Origin: Lachnospiraceae bacterium
Lineage (GTDB): Bacteria > Bacillota > Clostridia > Lachnospirales > Lachnospiraceae
Assembly: GCA_024685005.1 (NCBI GenBank)
Contig: JAIKWF010000012.1
Coordinates: 62,001-126,000 of the forward strand
Length of the DNA stretch: 64,000 nt
Direction: 5' to 3'
A program made the translations under genes and the position numbers. Below the pieces are notes generated by a model. The model was not told the origin of the DNA, searched no databases, and was given only the letters and a program-made list of their open reading frames with translations. Each line of letters starts with the position of its first letter. The stretch's first letter is position 1. This document shows positions 6,127 through 35,314 of this stretch, piece after piece.

Positions 6127-8250
6127 TTATCTGTGGAACTTCTTTTCCATCTCCTGCCTGGATACCGAGATCATGGTAGGTCGTCCGTGAGGACAATGAT
6201 AGGGGTTATCACAGGCTAACATTTCTTTGATCAGTGCTCTGGCTTCCTCTTCGGAAATATTCTGTCCGCCTTTAATAGCTGCCTTACAGGACATGCTGGC
6301 GATCTTAAAGAGGATCACGTCGGGATCTTTTCTTCCCACGCCTTCCGCCAGGGCGTCCAGCACCGATAAGAACAATTCTTTTTCACCGGATCCGTACAGA
6401 TCCATGGGCACACCCCGAAGGGCGTAGGTGTTCTCGCCGAAGTGCTCCGTTTCAAAGCCCAGTTTGGAAAAATCCTTTTGATACTCCTCTAAGATCTCGC
6501 ATTCCTTCGGTGTCAGTGTCATGATCAGCGGCGGACTTAAGGGCTCTGAGAAAACATCCTTTTCCCGGTAATGCTCCATCAGTCTTTCGTACATGACTTT
6601 TTCATGTGCCGCGTGCTGGTCTACGTAGTAGATCTTATCTCCAAGGGCCAGGATCCAGTAGGTATCAAAGATCTGGCCGACGATCCGGAAGTTTTCGATT
6701 TCCTGTTTTCTGATATCCACTTCATCAAACAGTTCCATCTGCACCGGTTTTTGTACCAGCACCATGTCTTTTTGTTTGATGACATTGCTTTCTCTGGGCA
6801 TTCCTGCCTTCTCACCGGGTTTGCCCAAAAGGCGGGAGATATCATAGCTGCTTGCTTCGCTGAGAACCGTTTTTTTCGGAGCACTTTCCGCTTCCTTACG
6901 ACCGGAGTCGGCACTTGCATCTTCCTTCTGCTCGCTGCCTGCGTTCGCGTCTTCTTTCTCACCGCTTCCGAAGATTTCCTCTTCCTTCTCTTCCACAATG
7001 TCGTTTTCTATATTGTCCGTCGGAGCCGCTTTCTGATCTGTCCGCACCGTCGCACCCTGTCCGGTGGTTGCCAATCCGGCGCTCTCCTGCACTGCCGCAC
7101 CCCGGTCCTGTGCCTCCTGCCTCGTGGGATCCTCCACCCTTCTATGCTGTTCGAAGGGCTGGGGAATCTGATCCGTCAGCTGTTTTGCCTCCTGGCGCCG
7201 CTCCATGCTCTCTTCTTTTTTCTCTGCCGCTGTCAGCTCCGGCGCTTCCGGCTGGATCAATGATTTGCCGGCAAGGGTCTGGGCCACGGAGTCTGCCAGA
7301 AACTTTAGAAGCTCTCCGGGATCGGAGATCCTGATGTCCAGTTTGGTGGGATGCACGTTCACATCCAGTCTCTGGGGATCGATGGAAAAATGCAGTACCA
7401 CAAAGGGATATTTGTGCTGCATCAAAAGGGTTCGGTATCCCTCCTCCACCGCAGAGGATAAAAGTGCGCTTTTGATATATCTTCCATTTACGAAAAAGGT
7501 TTCATAGCTGCGGTTTGCACGGGCCAGTATGGGACGTCCCAAAAATCCCCTGACCACAACGCCTTCCATGGTAGCCGCAAAGGGAAGCAGCTGGGTGGAC
7601 ACGTCTTTTCCGTAAATGCGGTAAATGATCTCTTTCATATCGCCGTTTCCGGAAGTAAAGAAACGGGTCTGTCCGTTGGAGACAAACTGAAAGGCTACCC
7701 CCGGCGAGCTCAGTGCCAGGTGCTGCATATATTCGCTGATATAATTGCCTTCCGTTGTGGGAGATTTTAAAAACTTTTTCCGGACAGGGGTATTGAAAAA
7801 CAGGTTTCGCACCACAATGGTGGTTCCCGTAGGTGCTCCCACTTCTTCCGGTTCCTCCAGACTTCCACCTGCGATCAAAAGCCTTGATCCCACCAGGTCG
7901 TCTGCCGTTTTTGTGATCAGTTCCACCTGACCCACAGCGGATATGGAGGAAAGCGCCTCACCGCGAAATCCCAGGGAATGGATACTGGAAAGATCCTCAG
8001 CGGTTTCGATCTTGCTTGTGGCATGGCGGTAAAAAACTTTTCCCAATTCACTTTTTTCAATTCCGCTTCCGTCATCCGTAACCCGGATCATGGAAACGCC
8101 CCCATCTTTGATCTCTACGCAGACATGGGTCGCGCCGGCATCAATGGCATTTTCCACCAGTTCCTTTACCACGGAAACCGGACGTTCCACCACTTCGCCT
8201 GCGGCGATCTTATCAATGGTTGCCGAATCTAAAACATGAATCACTGCCAT
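6127..8250 (-). CDS. mutL: DNA mismatch repair protein MutL
   Basis: MutL couples mismatch recognition by MutS to strand incision. The N-terminal GHKL ATPase shows VVKELVENAIDAGA, the DDGSGI Mg/ATP region and FRGEALSSISAVG. The C-terminus has the metal-dependent endonuclease motif DQHAAHEKVMYE near residues 545-556 and the late CPHGRPT motif, so this is a nicking MutL as expected in a genome without MutH. A long acidic, low-complexity linker covers about residues 340-470 and makes the protein, at 707 residues, longer than many homologues. It is 17 bp downstream of mutS. Confidence 0.98.
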   Translation of the reverse strand: MAVIHVLDSATIDKIAAGEVVERPVSVVKELVENAIDAGATHVCVEIKDGGVSMIRVTDDGSGIEKSELGKVFYRHATSKIETAEDLSSIHSLGFRGEALSSISAVGQVELITKTADDLVGSRLLIAGGSLEEPEEVGAPTGTTIVVRNLFFNTPVRKKFLKSPTTEGNYISEYMQHLALSSPGVAFQFVSNGQTRFFTSGNGDMKEIIYRIYGKDVSTQLLPFAATMEGVVVRGFLGRPILARANRSYETFFVNGRYIKSALLSSAVEEGYRTLLMQHKYPFVVLHFSIDPQRLDVNVHPTKLDIRISDPGELLKFLADSVAQTLAGKSLIQPEAPELTAAEKKEESMERRQEAKQLTDQIPQPFEQHRRVEDPTRQEAQDRGAAVQESAGLATTGQGATVRTDQKAAPTDNIENDIVEEKEEEIFGSGEKEDANAGSEQKEDASADSGRKEAESAPKKTVLSEASSYDISRLLGKPGEKAGMPRESNVIKQKDMVLVQKPVQMELFDEVDIRKQEIENFRIVGQIFDTYWILALGDKIYYVDQHAAHEKVMYERLMEHYREKDVFSEPLSPPLIMTLTPKECEILEEYQKDFSKLGFETEHFGENTYALRGVPMDLYGSGEKELFLSVLDALAEGVGRKDPDVILFKIASMSCKAAIKGGQNISEEEARALIKEMLACDNPYHCPHGRPTMISVSRQEMEKKFHR

Positions 8251-29648: not shown

Positions 29649-31154
29649 CTATCGCCACTCTTCCTCTGCTTTATTATAATACTCCATCAAAACGGGCTTT
29701 GTCAGACGGTTAACCTCCACATCCTGCGCCATCTCGTCTTTTCCGAAGCAAAACAGGGCCGAAACATTCTCTCCGGAAAGGTATTTCGTTTCCACATCAA
29801 AGTCAATGGTTTCCGTCAGATCCCGGCAGCTGGCCATATTAAAGCCCCAGTCGCCGAATGCGGGCACCTCCAGATGGTAAGCCTTGACATGCAATCCTTC
29901 GCTGGCAATGGTCTTGTTGATGCACCAAAAGGCCTCTGTTGCATAGTAAGGGGAGGTGGACTGAACCACCAGCACCCCCTCCGGGGTCAGGCAGTTTTTG
30001 CACATCCGGTAAAAGACATTGGAATACAGCTTGTTTAAGGACTCGGAGTTGGGATCGGGAAGATCCACAATGATCAGATCATAGCTTTCCTTGCAATGCT
30101 CCAGATACTCATAAGCATCCTGATTGTAAACGGTAAGCTTTTCCGAAAGAAGGCTGTTTTGATTGATCTGTGTGATATTTTCATTGGTGCTGCAGATCCG
30201 GATCATTTCGGCATCCAGATCGCACAGGTCGATATGCTTTACCTCTCCGTATTTCAGCACTTCCCTTACCGCCAGGCCATCTCCGCCGCCCAGGATCAGC
30301 ACCTTTTCCCTGGTTTGCAGCTCGTTCATGGGAACATGAACAAGGGCCTCATGATAGCGGTACTCGTCTGCGGTGGAAAACTGGCAGTTGCCGTCAATGA
30401 ACAGTCGAACGTCATCCTTATGCTTTGTCATGACGATCTTCTGATAAGGCGTCTGCTCCCGCAGGATCACCCGGTCCTGATACAGCCCCCCTTCAATGGC
30501 ATCCGAGATGTTATCGGAAAAGATCATGCCCATCAGCATTGCGCCTCCCAAAAGGACTGCAATGGTCCGGTAGACCCCTACGGGTTTGATCCTGCCGGCG
30601 AATTTCCACATGATCAGAAGTGCCGCACAAATATTTAAAAAGCCGCATAAAAAGGAAGTGGCAAAATATCCCAGCTTCGGCAAAAGAAGCAGGGGAAAAG
30701 CGATAGATCCGATGAGACCTCCGATGTAATCAAAGCTGAAAATGGAGGAAAGTGTGACCTTTAAGTTGTTTTCATCCTGCTCTATGATCCTGGTCATCAC
30801 CGGGATCTCCGCCCCGGCAAATCCTCCGATGATAATGATCACCAGATACATGACCACCGCATAATTGGAGACATAGATATTGGCAAGAAAAAGGATCAGC
30901 GAGCTGACACCGCCGATGACGCCGATCCCCAATTCTATGGTAATAAAAATATGAAACAGATTTTTGGAACAATACTTGGACAGATAAGACCCCAGTCCCA
31001 GGGACGCCATGTACAGTCCTATAGTAACGGAATACTGCAGGGTACTGTTTCCAAGAAGGTAAGAACTCACTGCGCTGATGATCAGTTCATAGCACATGGA
31101 ACACCCTGAAATGATCAGGGTCGTCAGCATCAGCAGTCTGTATTTTTTGCTCAT
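29649..31154 (-). CDS. speE: Membrane-anchored spermidine synthase-like aminopropyltransferase
   Basis: Two halves are fused. Residues 1-215 hold about seven hydrophobic helices of the transporter-like domain found in 'long' spermidine synthases. Residues 220-500 form the SAM-dependent Rossmann domain: FIDGNCQFSTADEYRYHE substrate loop, LILGGGDGLAVREVL nucleotide site, DLDAEM ribose contact, and IIVDLPDPNSE with the active-site Asp. The usual product is spermidine from putrescine and decarboxylated SAM, but the acceptor in this branch is unknown. It is the last gene of a five-gene module with a SpeD homologue, DUF350 and DUF4178, 18 bp after DUF350. Confidence 0.88.
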   Translation of the reverse strand: MSKKYRLLMLTTLIISGCSMCYELIISAVSSYLLGNSTLQYSVTIGLYMASLGLGSYLSKYCSKNLFHIFITIELGIGVIGGVSSLILFLANIYVSNYAVVMYLVIIIIGGFAGAEIPVMTRIIEQDENNLKVTLSSIFSFDYIGGLIGSIAFPLLLLPKLGYFATSFLCGFLNICAALLIMWKFAGRIKPVGVYRTIAVLLGGAMLMGMIFSDNISDAIEGGLYQDRVILREQTPYQKIVMTKHKDDVRLFIDGNCQFSTADEYRYHEALVHVPMNELQTREKVLILGGGDGLAVREVLKYGEVKHIDLCDLDAEMIRICSTNENITQINQNSLLSEKLTVYNQDAYEYLEHCKESYDLIIVDLPDPNSESLNKLYSNVFYRMCKNCLTPEGVLVVQSTSPYYATEAFWCINKTIASEGLHVKAYHLEVPAFGDWGFNMASCRDLTETIDFDVETKYLSGENVSALFCFGKDEMAQDVEVNRLTKPVLMEYYNKAEEEWR

Positions 31155-31172
31155 AAAAACATCCTTCGCACG

Positions 31173-31589
31173 TTACTGGATCACACCGCTGACAATCATT
31201 GCAACGCCCATAAAGATACCGAAGATCATGATGCCGGCAGCTTCATTCTTTTTCTCAAGTTCCACATTAAAGTTGAATTTCCGGTTTACGATATCCACTG
31301 CGAAATAGCCGATGATGAATGCCAGCACACCTATAGCCGCATAAATGACCGTATTGAGGACACCGTCCAAAAGCTGTTCATGCTCCGATACGGTAAAGGT
31401 AAGGATGGCGGAACGGATGATCAGACCAAGTCCCATATAGATTCCCGCTGACACCCAGCCTACCGCTTTGTTTCCTTCCTGAATTTCCTTGGGGAAATCC
31501 GCCGGAATGATCAGGTCGATGATCAGATAACCGATCATCATCACCGCAAGTCCTACCACAAGATACACAGCTGTCTCCAATGCAAACAT
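31173..31589 (-). CDS. DUF350 (YjfL-like) integral membrane protein
   Basis: This 138-residue protein has four helices arranged as an internal duplication. GLAVMMIGYLIIDLIIP...EGNKAVGWVSAGIYMGLGLIIRS is mirrored by GVLAFIIGYFAVDIVNR...KKNEAAGIMIFGIFMGVAMIVSG. The paired G-Y-x-x-x-D and N-x-A-x-G motifs are the DUF350 hallmark. Escherichia coli YjfL belongs to this family and is encoded with a glutathionylspermidine-synthase-like protein (YjfC), so a polyamine-linked context recurs. Role unknown, possibly a small channel or membrane partner of the adjacent enzyme. It lies between the DUF4178 gene (95-bp gap) and speE (18-bp gap). Confidence 0.9.
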   Translation of the reverse strand: MFALETAVYLVVGLAVMMIGYLIIDLIIPADFPKEIQEGNKAVGWVSAGIYMGLGLIIRSAILTFTVSEHEQLLDGVLNTVIYAAIGVLAFIIGYFAVDIVNRKFNFNVELEKKNEAAGIMIFGIFMGVAMIVSGVIQ

Positions 31590-31684
31590 ATTTTTTCCCT
31601 CCTGTACTTTATACGATATGTTTTCTCTGCTGTTTTTGCTTCCGTTTTCTTCGCCCCGCCGGTTTATGATTCCCGGCAGACCGG

Positions 31685-32758
31685 CTATTTCCCTCCCCCG
31701 CTGGAAGAGCTTCTGCTGTTGATGCTGCTCTGCCTTACGGAGCTTGAATAGGAATCAAAATACCCGTTCCCCAGGTTGTGGATCGTATCTCCCTGATAAG
31801 AGGTATAGGCCGAAGGCGTTCTCTTAAAGGAGCTTGCATCCTTGCTGTAGCTGGAAGAATAATAGTGGCTCCGGTACCATCTTGCTCCGGTTTTGGAGGC
31901 TTTATATGGGGTATTGTCCGAAGTATAATTGTACTTCCTGTTGGAGATCTGGACTAAAACCCTGTTAGGTTCATTCTCCGGATGGTAAACGAGACAATAC
32001 TCCTTTTTCGTTACGATGGCGATCTCTTCATCGGGGTTATCGTCCTTTTGGGTGACGCACTGGGTATCCCCTTCGATGCCGTCTATGATCTCCTTTGCCA
32101 CCTGATCTGTGGTGAAAGTCGCTTTGCTTTGGTATACATCCGCTTTTTGTTTTTCATTTCCGGTTATGGATGTCACATAGCTGTAATTGTTTGATTTTTT
32201 CAAAAAATTGTCGATCCGCTTGTGAGTCAGGCTGAATCCCGTTGTATCCATCCAGGCTCCCACCACGGTGAAGCATACATATAAGAACACAACTGCTGTC
32301 AGCCATCCCATGCCCGATTTTTTCTTGGGCGGTTCTTCAAATCCCGTTACTGCAATCTCATTTGCATCCAGATAATATCCGGTGGAATACTCCGTCCCGT
32401 CATCCCAGATCTCAACCGAAAGGGTCTTTTCTTCCGTTTCGTCCTCAAACTCCACGAAGTTGGCACTATCGCCCCGCTCCACGTCCACGTCGCCGCCACA
32501 GGAGACTACCACCTGTCTGCCTTCGTCCACTTTCTTCCATTCCGGTCCGATATTGCCGCCCACTTTATTCTCCGGCTTGGAAATGGAATACTCTTTATAC
32601 ACCTCGTCAATAGACAACCAGCGCTCTCCCTGATTTGTGGAAAGCCGGTATTCCTTCCACCGGTTATTGCGATCCTGGGGATTGGCATATTCGATAAAGC
32701 CTATGACTTTTGCATCGATGCCATCCACCCGAAGTTTTGTTCCGACTCTGATATCCAT
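31685..32758 (-). CDS. DUF4178-TM-DUF4247 fusion protein
   Basis: The N-terminal 140 residues form two beta-rich DUF4178-like units (VGTKLRVDGIDAKVIGF... and GRQVVVSCGGDVDVERGDSANF...), each ending in a WDD- or ERWLS-type motif. A single membrane helix follows at about residues 150-170. The C-terminal part, about residues 175-357, ends in a Tyr/Ser-rich tail (YYSSSYSKDASSFKRTPSAYTSY) resembling DUF4247. In other Firmicutes DUF4178 and DUF4247 are often separate neighbours, so this looks like a fusion. No catalytic residues are evident. Both family names are recalled by pattern and not searched. It lies 24 bp after speD. Confidence 0.75.
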   Translation of the reverse strand: MDIRVGTKLRVDGIDAKVIGFIEYANPQDRNNRWKEYRLSTNQGERWLSIDEVYKEYSISKPENKVGGNIGPEWKKVDEGRQVVVSCGGDVDVERGDSANFVEFEDETEEKTLSVEIWDDGTEYSTGYYLDANEIAVTGFEEPPKKKSGMGWLTAVVFLYVCFTVVGAWMDTTGFSLTHKRIDNFLKKSNNYSYVTSITGNEKQKADVYQSKATFTTDQVAKEIIDGIEGDTQCVTQKDDNPDEEIAIVTKKEYCLVYHPENEPNRVLVQISNRKYNYTSDNTPYKASKTGARWYRSHYYSSSYSKDASSFKRTPSAYTSYQGDTIHNLGNGYFDSYSSSVRQSSINSRSSSSGGGK

Positions 32759-32782
32759 TTGTTTCTCCCCTTGGGTTAAGTG

Positions 32783-33118
32783 TTACTGACCGATCCTGCG
32801 TTCAACCGTCTGCACACAGATTTTTTCTGCGCCGAACAGCTGCTGCAGTTTTGCTGAGATCCCCTCAGCCACGCTGCCTGTACAGGAAAAAATATCCACC
32901 GCCGCATATCCGTGTTCCGGCCAGGTGTGTATGGAAAAATGCGATGTGGTGATCACCGCAAAATAGGTCACTCCTATGGGCTCAAATTCGTGCATACACT
33001 CTTCCACGATATCGGCGCCCACAAAACGGATCGCTTCCCGGGCTGCCTTTCTGATCCGCTCAGGATCATCCAGTATTTCGCCGCAGCCGTACAGATCCGC
33101 AATCAGTTGCTTTGCCAT
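32783..33118 (-). CDS. speD: SpeD-like pyruvoyl decarboxylase (S-adenosylmethionine decarboxylase family)
   Basis: Short class 1B AdoMetDC proteins cleave themselves at a Glu-Ser bond, the Ser becoming the pyruvoyl cofactor. The 111-residue product has the family core SIHTWPEHGYAAVDIFSC, with the processing Ser, the His of SIHTW and the Cys of IFSC retained. However the residue before the Ser is Thr (ITTSHFS) where SpeD proteins have Glu (ESH). It may therefore process poorly or have another substrate, since SpeD relatives that decarboxylate ornithine or arginine are known. It lies 19 bp after the zinc-ribbon gene and 24 bp before DUF4178. Confidence 0.88.
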   Translation of the reverse strand: MAKQLIADLYGCGEILDDPERIRKAAREAIRFVGADIVEECMHEFEPIGVTYFAVITTSHFSIHTWPEHGYAAVDIFSCTGSVAEGISAKLQQLFGAEKICVQTVERRIGQ

Positions 33119-33137
33119 CTTTTTACCGTCTCCCGAT

Positions 33138-33467
33138 TTATTTTTTCCAAAAAGAAAACCCGGTGAGTTTATGACGTGTTCCGTAATTGCCGTCTGCTTC
33201 TTTCTTCAGGGCACCGCAGCCTTTGCAGACCGTGGCATCCGATCTGTTATAGGTGCTGCAGTAAGAACACATCCAATCCGGTTCATTTGTGGTTTTGGCG
33301 GCTTCCTCTTTTGTAAGCACCGCTCCCTGCAAATCATCCGGAAGATAAAACCGGGTTTCCGGTCCTCTGGGACTTCCGCACTGCTGACATTCCCCATACC
33401 TTGCTTTGATGCCGGTATTCCCGCAGTATGCGCAGTCCCACAGGCCTTCAATTCTCTTAGATTCCAT
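33138..33467 (-). CDS. Protein with two RanBP2-type zinc ribbons
   Basis: The 109-residue product carries two zinc ribbons. The first is WDCAYCGNTGIKARYGECQQCG, read as C-x2-C-x11-C-x2-C. The second is WMCSYCSTYNRSDATVCKGC, an exact W-x-C-x2-C-x3-N-x6-C-x2-C RanBP2 pattern. Such ribbons bind protein, ubiquitin or single-stranded RNA in eukaryotes, and their bacterial role is unknown. The ATG at 33467 has GAGGTGG five bases upstream; a GTG at 33476 lies within that site and is rejected. It is the first gene of the speD-DUF4178-DUF350-speE module and may be its adaptor. Confidence 0.85.
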   Translation of the reverse strand: MESKRIEGLWDCAYCGNTGIKARYGECQQCGSPRGPETRFYLPDDLQGAVLTKEEAAKTTNEPDWMCSYCSTYNRSDATVCKGCGALKKEADGNYGTRHKLTGFSFWKK

Positions 33468-33485
33468 AGTTTCCACCTCATTGAT

Positions 33486-33754: not shown

Positions 33755-33785
33755 GCACCGTAGGATTATCCTGCGGTGCTTTTTT
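33755..33785 (+). terminator. Intrinsic terminator acting as attenuator before the ABC-F gene
   Basis: Stem GCACCGTAGGA (33755-33765), loop TTA, stem TCCTGCGGTGC (33769-33779): 11 pairs with one G-U, followed by six T (33780-33785). It ends five bases before the GGAGGTG ribosome binding site of the ABC-F gene, so it must be bypassed for expression. Upstream in the leader, CAGCCTG near 33625 can pair with CAGGCTG near 33678. I could not confirm a full antiterminator. Confidence 0.75.
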
Positions 33786-33802
33786 GTTCGGAGGTGTATC
33801 TT

Positions 33803-35314
33803 ATGTCTATATTACAGGTAAATGATCTGACCTTCTGCTATGAAGGCAGCTTTGAGAATATTTTTGAAAACGTGTCCTTCCATGTGGATACGGACTGGAA
33901 ACTGGGACTTGTGGGAAGAAACGGAAAAGGAAAAACCACCTTTTTAAATCTTCTCATGGGCAAATATGATTACAGTGGCAGTATTACCTGCAGCAGCCGC
34001 TTTGACTACTTTCCCTATCCCATCCGGGAAGGCGACCGCATGCGCAGCATATCGGAGCTGTGCGAAACCTGGAAAAGCGGCGTGGAACAATGGCGGGTGA
34101 TCTGCGAGCTGGGAAGCCTGCAGGCTGATCCGGAGATCCTGTACCGGCCCATATCCACCCTTTCCCAGGGACAACTTACCAAAGCCATGCTGGCGGTACT
34201 TTTTTCCGGAGAAAATGAATTTCTGCTCATAGACGAGCCTACCAATCATTTGGACCGCACCGGTCGGGAAGTGATCACGGAGTATCTTTCCGGCAAAAAG
34301 GGCTTTATCCTGGTCTCCCACGACCGGGTGCTTTTGGACGCTCTTTGCGATCATATGCTGGTTTTAAACCGCAGCTCCATCGAAGTTGCATCGGGTAACT
34401 TTTCTGTCTGGTGGGAAAATAAGGAGCGCAAAGACAGCTTTGCCAAAGCGGAAAACGAAAAGCACCTCAAGCAGATCAGCAAGCTGCGCTCTTCCGCTGA
34501 CAGGACCCTGCGCTGGGCCGAGAAAAGCGAGCAGACCAAGATCGGCTTTGATCCCGTCAAAGAACACGACCGCTGTCTTTCCACCCGATCTTACATCGGT
34601 GCCAAAACCAAAAAGATGCAGTCGCGGGTGAAAAACTTTGAAAAACGGATGGAACAGGAAATTGCCGAAAAAGAAGGGCTGCTCAATGACATCGAAAGCG
34701 TGGCCGATCTGAAGCTGATGCCTCTCTCCCACCACAAAAGCTGTCTTGTGGAGGCAAGAGACCTTTCCCTGTCCTATGATCCCGAGGGCGCTTCCCCTGT
34801 TATAAAGGATCTGACCTTTTCTGCCATGCAGGGAGATATTCTGTTTTTGAAAGGCGAAAACGGATGCGGTAAATCCACCCTGATCAAAGCCATCCTGCAG
34901 ACTGCAGAGTGCCGGATTACGGGCGGCTCCTTAAGCGTTGCCTCCGGACTTGTGCTCTCCTACGTCAGTCAGGATACCTCCTTTTTGAAGGGGACCCTGA
35001 AAGATTACGCCAAAGAAAAGGATCTGGATCTTTCTCTTTTGCTCACCCTCCTTCGCAAGCTGGATTTAGGCAGATCGCAGTTTGAAAAAAACATGGAGGA
35101 TTTTTCCGAAGGACAGAAGAAAAAAGTTCTGATCGCAGCCAGCCTGCTGACGCCGGCCCATTTGTACATCTGGGATGAGCCTTTAAACTATATTGATGTC
35201 TTTTCCCGGATGCAGATTGAAAAACTGATCGAAACCTATCATCCCACCATGATCCTGGTGGAGCACGATGATTATTTCAGACAAAAACTGGCAACGAAGA
35301 CCACAGAGCTTTGA
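33803..35314 (+). CDS. ABC-F ribosomal protection protein, Lsa-like
   Basis: ABC-F proteins bind the ribosomal E site. The Lsa/Vga branch protects against lincosamides, pleuromutilins and streptogramin A. The first ATP site has GRNGKGKTT, signature LSQGQ and LLIDEPTNHLD. The second has GENGCGKST, signature FSEGQ and LYIWDEPLNYID. The region KRWAEK/KIGFDP...RAYIGAK between them resembles the Lsa interdomain linker (here LRWAEKSEQTKIGFDPVKE). The start is the ATG at 33803 after GGAGGTG; a GTG at 33776 lies inside the attenuator. There are no membrane segments. Resistance is inferred from family likeness and from the attenuator upstream. A housekeeping role remains possible. Confidence 0.88.
   Translation: MSILQVNDLTFCYEGSFENIFENVSFHVDTDWKLGLVGRNGKGKTTFLNLLMGKYDYSGSITCSSRFDYFPYPIREGDRMRSISELCETWKSGVEQWRVICELGSLQADPEILYRPISTLSQGQLTKAMLAVLFSGENEFLLIDEPTNHLDRTGREVITEYLSGKKGFILVSHDRVLLDALCDHMLVLNRSSIEVASGNFSVWWENKERKDSFAKAENEKHLKQISKLRSSADRTLRWAEKSEQTKIGFDPVKEHDRCLSTRSYIGAKTKKMQSRVKNFEKRMEQEIAEKEGLLNDIESVADLKLMPLSHHKSCLVEARDLSLSYDPEGASPVIKDLTFSAMQGDILFLKGENGCGKSTLIKAILQTAECRITGGSLSVASGLVLSYVSQDTSFLKGTLKDYAKEKDLDLSLLLTLLRKLDLGRSQFEKNMEDFSEGQKKKVLIAASLLTPAHLYIWDEPLNYIDVFSRMQIEKLIETYHPTMILVEHDDYFRQKLATKTTEL

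Follow-up and report, generated by a model that had tools for sequence, protein, structure and literature searches.

A compact PspA-free module of SpeD, membrane-fused SpeE, DUF350 and a DUF4178-DUF4247 fusion in a Lachnospiraceae genome, a candidate aminopropyl-transfer unit

We analysed a 64,000-nucleotide stretch of a Lachnospiraceae bacterium genome (GenBank assembly GCA_024685005.1, contig JAIKWF010000012.1, positions 62,001 to 126,000; hereafter the window). Its minus strand carries, at 29649-33467, a run of five genes, whose products are a double zinc ribbon, the S-adenosylmethionine (SAM or AdoMet) decarboxylase SpeD, a protein with DUF4178 and DUF4247-like parts, a DUF350 membrane protein and the aminopropyltransferase SpeE fused to a membrane domain. 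These five genes are a real co-inherited unit, and we lean, by a little, towards the view that they form a membrane-bound aminopropyl-transfer unit, acting on an acceptor that is probably held at the membrane and probably something other than free putrescine. Decarboxylated SAM is best known as a precursor of polyamines, and the membrane-fused aminopropyltransferases, a widespread family, appear to act outside polyamine synthesis. The window genome offers a compact form of the system, in which searches found a single SpeD and no PspA, and spermidine likely comes by a separate route; this form lacks the PspA that distant relatives carry alongside, and its gene order is kept in dozens of related bacteria.

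A co-inherited five-gene module

The module lies on contig C67 of a 2.94 Mb genome assembled in 134 contigs and 97% complete. A previous reading of the sequence alone had proposed five co-directional genes with gaps of 19, 24, 95 and 18 bp, encoding a double RanBP2-type zinc ribbon, a SpeD, a transmembrane protein with DUF4178 and DUF4247-like parts, a four-helix duplicated DUF350 and a membrane SpeE; the layout was recovered on re-derived coordinates and profile searches with each protein agreed with the identities, as detailed for each gene below.

In a family sample of 80 Lachnospiraceae genomes, one per genus, DUF4178, DUF350 scoring above 90 bits and the long SpeE fusion were each found in five genomes, and these were the identical five (G000, G001, G037, G054 and G071), with the three genes adjacent in all of them. 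Elsewhere in the sample, G025 had two weak DUF350 matches barely above the cut-off (32 bits) and the DUF350 matches of G014, G045, G069 and G070 were all below threshold. SpeD of class 1b (short frames scoring 110-122 bits) was present in 4 of the 5 module genomes compared to 1 of the 75 others (P = 1.6e-5), and the search of this sample found no SpeD of any kind in the module genome G001.

Related loci were fetched using the SpeE fusion as anchor and the best 80 of 191 were kept, so that this set is biased towards close relatives and every locus carries the anchor gene; gene presence was scored with hidden Markov models made from close relatives, and divergent copies of DUF350 and DUF4178 may therefore have been missed. 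DUF4178 was present at 76 of these loci, DUF350 at 75, SpeD at 61 (one of them, L143, interrupted) and the zinc ribbon at 41, while the five-gene order of the window was seen at 37, one of which has an extra ribbon match upstream. The closest loci were Lachnospiraceae records with fusions up to 83% identical to that of the window. There is no other recurring partner among the flanking genes, since the commonest cluster of these was found at 11 of the 80 loci and in varied positions. The sequence-only reading had named co-occurrence at chance level, or absence of the other genes from most relatives, as grounds for abandoning its proposal of a membrane-linked unit containing an aminopropyltransferase-family enzyme; co-occurrence was instead far above chance in both the family sample and the 80 loci, with DUF4178 and DUF350 in most relatives, and co-inheritance of such a unit is thereby upheld. 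DUF4178 was absent at loci L107-L110, and at two of these a small gene lies upstream of SpeD-DUF350-SpeE (a DUF1622 gene at L107 7811-8161 and its relative at L108 7485-7820).

SpeD and the supply of decarboxylated SAM

The module SpeD (32783..33118, minus strand) is of the B. subtilis type with the motif SHFSIHTWPE, scoring 111 bits against AdoMet_dc (PF02675) and 96.1 bits against TIGR03330, whose cut-off of 75.65 it passes; proteins of this type we take to be the class 1b AdoMet decarboxylases. The search for PF02675 covered the window's genome and the genomes behind 75 of the 80 loci (25 + 50), the loci left out of the per-locus search being L087, L097, L132, L145 and L120, the last with its genome covered via L112. 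No second AdoMet_dc was found in the window's 97%-complete genome, and none of the 57 searched genomes with a module SpeD had a SpeD found elsewhere: 57 of 57 matches in 56 genomes mapped back to the module SpeD, as did that of the window's own genome, and the sole genome with two matches (G140) carries two modules. Among the 16 Bacillota genomes without a module SpeD, 14 encode a SpeD at another site (in 13 the frame measures 260-317 amino acids, and in one it is cut at a contig end), an association with uncorrected Fisher P values of 4e-13 for Bacillota and 1.7e-11 when Bacteroidota are included. A comparison with NCBIfam, covering 2 of these 14 copies and 4 of the 8 long SpeD copies of the family sample, placed both of the former in TIGR03331 (the E. 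coli type), far above the cut-off. The state of the module SpeD changed at least 11 times on the tree of the fusions. As the module SpeD is missing mainly where another SpeD exists, the simplest reading is a need for decarboxylated SAM, most likely met in cis or in trans by whichever SpeD produces it. Soluble SpeE does not account for the presence of SpeD, because 24 of the 36 family-sample genomes with a soluble SpeE (read by eye) are without SpeD.

Several observations weigh against this reading and against a non-polyamine role for the module. The donor rule is not universal, since no SpeD was found in two Bacillota genomes, those of L125 (G001, approximately 94% complete) and L128, nor in three of the four Bacteroidota genomes, the fourth (L143) having an interrupted adjacent SpeD; the genomes without SpeD may be incomplete or may use something else. 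When ancestry is taken into account the support is modest, with 7 independent pairs on supported branches dividing mostly into 5 for, 0 against and 2 tied (median P = 0.0625, ranging to 0.125). All 8 long SpeD copies of the family sample share a contig with a soluble SpeE, within about 3 kb, and long copies of this kind are expected for ordinary polyamine synthesis too. At the enzyme itself, the putrescine end of the pocket is altered rather than abolished, and its sequence would be compatible with a polyamine acceptor (residues given below). Finally, the experiment reported to exclude polyamine production by related fusions (Li 2019) concerned other species, and the one sentence of PMC12803844 that cites it is not tied to this clade.

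Some further features of SpeD and soluble SpeE loci were noted. In the Bacteroidota module of L143 the SpeD frame (7694-7972) is broken by an in-frame stop. In addition to an E. coli-type SpeD, genome G017 has one of class 1b that belongs to no module (L067 8452-8802). Soluble SpeE adjoins an Orn/Lys/Arg-type decarboxylase at 30 of 30 loci (G000 C1:36487-37038 = L002, L068; L034-L062), and a CASDH-like (carboxyspermidine dehydrogenase-like) gene lies inside the 1.5-kb flank at 13 of the 19 soluble-SpeE loci in genomes without SpeD.

The membrane-fused SpeE

The SpeE fusion (29649..31154, minus strand, 501 amino acids) is a PRK03612-type polyamine aminopropyltransferase by profile search, scoring 141.7 against Spermine_synth (PF01564) and 596 against NF002956 (cut-off 472) across the entire fusion. 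Its AlphaFold2 model (predicted local distance difference test, pLDDT, 89) has helical segments over residues 3-221, within the membrane domain of residues 1-221 (30492..31154), followed by the aminopropyltransferase domain at residues 223-480 (29715..30488), which contains GGGDG at 289-293, D346 and a catalytic-type D364xxD367P. The model divides the stretch ahead of residue 222 into eight helical segments, including one of 54 residues, compared to the seven helices first counted. Conservation in 68 close relatives is similar in the two parts, columns conserved at 97% or above numbering 80 of 206 in the membrane part and 100 of 258 in the enzyme part. When three distant fusions were added, to which the membrane part is 27-44% identical, Y22, E23, Q40, E74, D142 and N174 were retained, all within model helices.

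The enzyme part keeps D292, D346, D364 and D367 in the alignment of the fusions; from spermidine synthase structures we presume D292 and D346 to belong to the SAM site and D364 and D367 to be of catalytic type. At the acceptor end, S399, F433, D435 and G437 are invariant in the 68 fusions, where H, Y, H and L stand in eight soluble SpeE enzymes (those encoded near long-type SpeD), and residue 435 is not retained in the distant fusions. The canonical spermidine synthase profile TIGR00417 scored 151.6 bits, its cut-off of 249.55 not being reached. Spermine synthases carry the signature GGGD(G/C)G with a Glu in motif 3 (PMC11107197), from which the window fusion departs with GGGDGL and, in our alignment, Asp312 at the motif 3 position. 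Against the fused major facilitator superfamily (MFS)/spermidine synthase family NF037959 (cut-off 40) the window fusion scored 36.7 bits and its relative at L169 45.1 bits. The family-sample genome G000 also encodes a third, distant SpeE-domain protein of 543 amino acids with an N-terminal membrane-like part (C97:80229-80672, L004), and weak SpeE-domain matches in long frames of this kind are common across the family.

The DUF4178-DUF4247 fusion, DUF350 and the zinc ribbon

The fusion protein (31685..32758, minus strand), which ends in ..SVRQSSINSRSSSSGGGK, was modelled by AlphaFold2 as a beta domain, one transmembrane-like helix and a second domain (pLDDT 89; predicted TM-score, pTM, 0.53). 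The DUF4178 domain occupies residues 1-140 (32339..32758), with a Pfam match to PF13785 over residues 4-131 (52.9 bits, cut-off 25) and strands over 7-140 in the model. A transmembrane helix is predicted at residues 150-170 (32249..32311); as a Lys-rich stretch precedes it, DUF4178 is predicted to lie on the inner side of the membrane and the remainder of the protein on the outer side. The DUF4247-like part (residues 177-357, 31688..32230) had no match of its own in the Pfam search of the fusion, and was recognised by a profile-profile match (hhalign, probability 95.9, E = 5e-9) of the C-terminal half to the DUF4247-type proteins of L169-L171, with which it shares a similar C-terminus, ..R..S..SR...GGG..GK. 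The occurrence of both parts in one chain supports the view that DUF4178 and DUF4247 proteins may cooperate across the membrane.

The DUF350 (YjfL-type) membrane protein (31173..31589, minus strand) scored 95.7 against PF03994 (cut-off 26), with four hydrophobic peaks and an internal duplication visible as a second BLAST segment against relatives.

The zinc ribbon (109 amino acids) was given an ATG start, at 33138-33467 on the minus strand, where the open reading frame lister instead chose a GTG at 33476. Its RanBP2-like PF00641 score of 26.3 is marginally below the Pfam cut-off of 27, and its two Cys sets (C12/C15-C27/C30 and C67/C70-C81/C84) are retained in full, all eight Cys, in 41 of 42 aligned proteins; only an 83-amino-acid frame at L087 departs from this. 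As it is found at just 41 of the 80 related loci, the ribbon appears to be an accessory gene of the module.

Relationship to known operons

Clusters combining an AdoMet decarboxylase of class 1b, a membrane-fused spermidine synthase and DUF350 were reportedly described by Li et al. in 2019. These features are present in the window, which has a class 1b-type SpeD (TIGR03330) and a membrane-fused spermidine synthase beside DUF350; it differs in its DUF4178-DUF4247 fusion, its zinc ribbon and a likely other route to spermidine, and the supply of decarboxylated SAM in trans by another SpeD is a proposal of the present analysis.

The sequence-only reading had held the module to be a candidate for an undescribed system, and this was not borne out. 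An operon of SpeE-7TM, DUF350, DUF4178 and PspA (a second group, with a CesT/Tir-PspA pair) and a DUF4247 variant are described in PMC11237479 (mSystems 2024), which also names a lipoprotein, Ctha_1186, and a passage of PMC12803844 cites Li 2019 for bacterial membrane-aminopropyltransferase fusions, related to a fungal one, that reportedly produce neither spermidine nor spermine. The general kind is therefore already published, and the compact PspA-free form with a zinc ribbon and a DUF4178-DUF4247 fusion is a variant of it. Like the operon of PMC11237479, the window has a SpeE with an N-terminal multi-helix membrane domain, DUF350 and DUF4178, and like its DUF4247 variant it has a DUF4247-like part, though fused behind a predicted transmembrane helix; unlike that operon, the window has no CesT/Tir-PspA pair, and it has a double zinc ribbon, a SpeD inside the operon and DUF4178 and DUF4247 fused. 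PspA (PF04012) was not found in the window's 97%-complete genome and no CesT/Tir-PspA pair is among the five genes, which makes the module a PspA-free variant and not a member of that group.

Distant relatives in the same phylum have the order DUF4178 - PspA - DUF4247 lipoprotein - DUF350 - SpeE fusion - potassium channel (G262 and G229) or DUF4178 - PspA - DUF2617 - DUF4247 - SpeE fusion (G190), assignments made by Pfam for L170 and L169 and by resemblance for L171; DUF4178 and DUF4247 form two proteins in all three, and one chain in the window. DUF4178 can occur without the enzyme, since 4 of the 8 DUF4178 genomes of a phylum sample have no full-length SpeE fusion and no such fusion was found in the fetched surroundings of their DUF4178 genes (L172-L175); PspA, DUF350 and DUF4178 occur jointly at L172, a DUF4247 gene is present at L173, and at L174 a soluble SpeE lies some 8 kb off. 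A Novosphingobium plasmid (NZ_CP063446.1) carries SPFH-DUF4178-DUF4178-DUF350-SpeE-FAD (flavin adenine dinucleotide) oxidoreductase-SpeD, PspA-free as annotated; it shares DUF350, DUF4178, SpeD and the SpeE fusion (39% identical) with the window, and differs in having an SPFH protein and an oxidoreductase and no annotated zinc ribbon or DUF4247.

Proposed mechanism and alternative explanations

For the membrane-bound transfer unit that we favour, SpeD would supply decarboxylated SAM, whose aminopropyl group would be passed by the membrane-fused SpeE, on the inner side of the membrane, to an acceptor that is most likely not free putrescine. The membrane domain, with its acidic residues in helices, may handle or move a cationic product beyond mere anchoring, while the DUF4178-DUF4247 protein and DUF350 could contact the enzyme as a scaffold or sensor across the membrane and the zinc ribbon could be an optional cytosolic adaptor. 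A bolder form of this scheme, which we think unlikely, is a PspA-independent machine producing cationic membrane lipids of a new class, in which SpeE would aminopropylate an amine-bearing lipid head group with the decarboxylated SAM from SpeD, the acid-lined membrane domain would carry the product across the bilayer and the DUF4178-DUF4247 protein would sense both sides. MprF, a lipid aminoacyl transferase-flippase of unrelated enzyme fold and donor, likewise pairs a lipid-handling membrane domain with a cytosolic transferase, and might serve as a working analogy, with no membership implied.

That SpeD and the membrane SpeE simply make spermidine (or spermine or thermospermine), with the membrane domain as an anchor or exporter, seems unlikely to us, although the aminopropyltransferase fold and catalytic-type residues are intact, the best matches among solved structures belong to polyamine enzymes, headed by a triamine/agmatine enzyme, the NCBI family is named polyamine aminopropyltransferase and a polycation could be accommodated by acidic residues in membrane helices. 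The window genome already encodes a soluble SpeE and a carboxyspermidine-type cluster and likely makes spermidine by that separate route, the spermidine and spermine synthase signatures are lacking, and the linkage to DUF350 and DUF4178 would be left unexplained; to this may be added the bacterial fusions reported, in PMC12803844, without spermidine or spermine production. A change of SpeD substrate, giving an arginine or ornithine decarboxylase and agmatine- or putrescine-based products, has precedent in the widespread substrate changes of SpeD homologues described in PMC10407285, but is very improbable here, as the module SpeD passes the TIGR03330 equivalog cut-off and its absences fall mainly in genomes with an AdoMet decarboxylase elsewhere, consistent with a redundant AdoMet decarboxylase having been lost.

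The company kept by distant relatives raises a further alternative, a PspA-free branch of the envelope-stress operons in which DUF4178, DUF4247 and DUF350 would be a membrane-stress platform, tuned by SpeD and SpeE through local polyamine or aminopropylation of a platform protein, with the zinc ribbon replacing PspA. The same proteins adjoin PspA at L169-L171, L172 has PspA with DUF350 and DUF4178 and no SpeE fusion in the fetched stretch, and the Novosphingobium cluster carries an SPFH protein instead. PspA was also rarer in genomes with the zinc ribbon (4 of 32) than in those without (16 of 30), a contrast confounded by ancestry, as the ribbon changes state 3 times on the tree; these totals exclude G190, G229 and G262 (PspA in the operon), count G103, which repeats G037, once, and score matches below the Pfam cut-off (G080 and G109) as absent. 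The four Bacteroidota modules have neither zinc ribbon nor PspA. We hold this alternative to be quite improbable. Chance neighbourhood or an assembly artefact has a negligible probability and was ruled out by the identical five genes in identical order at 37 of the 80 loci, in separate public records.

A neighbouring gene

Adjoining the module on the opposite strand, a plus-strand gene at 33776-35314 of the window encodes an Lsa/ABC-F-like ATPase, which at 607 bits falls short of the Lsa cut-off of 750 and exceeds the general ABC-F cut-off.

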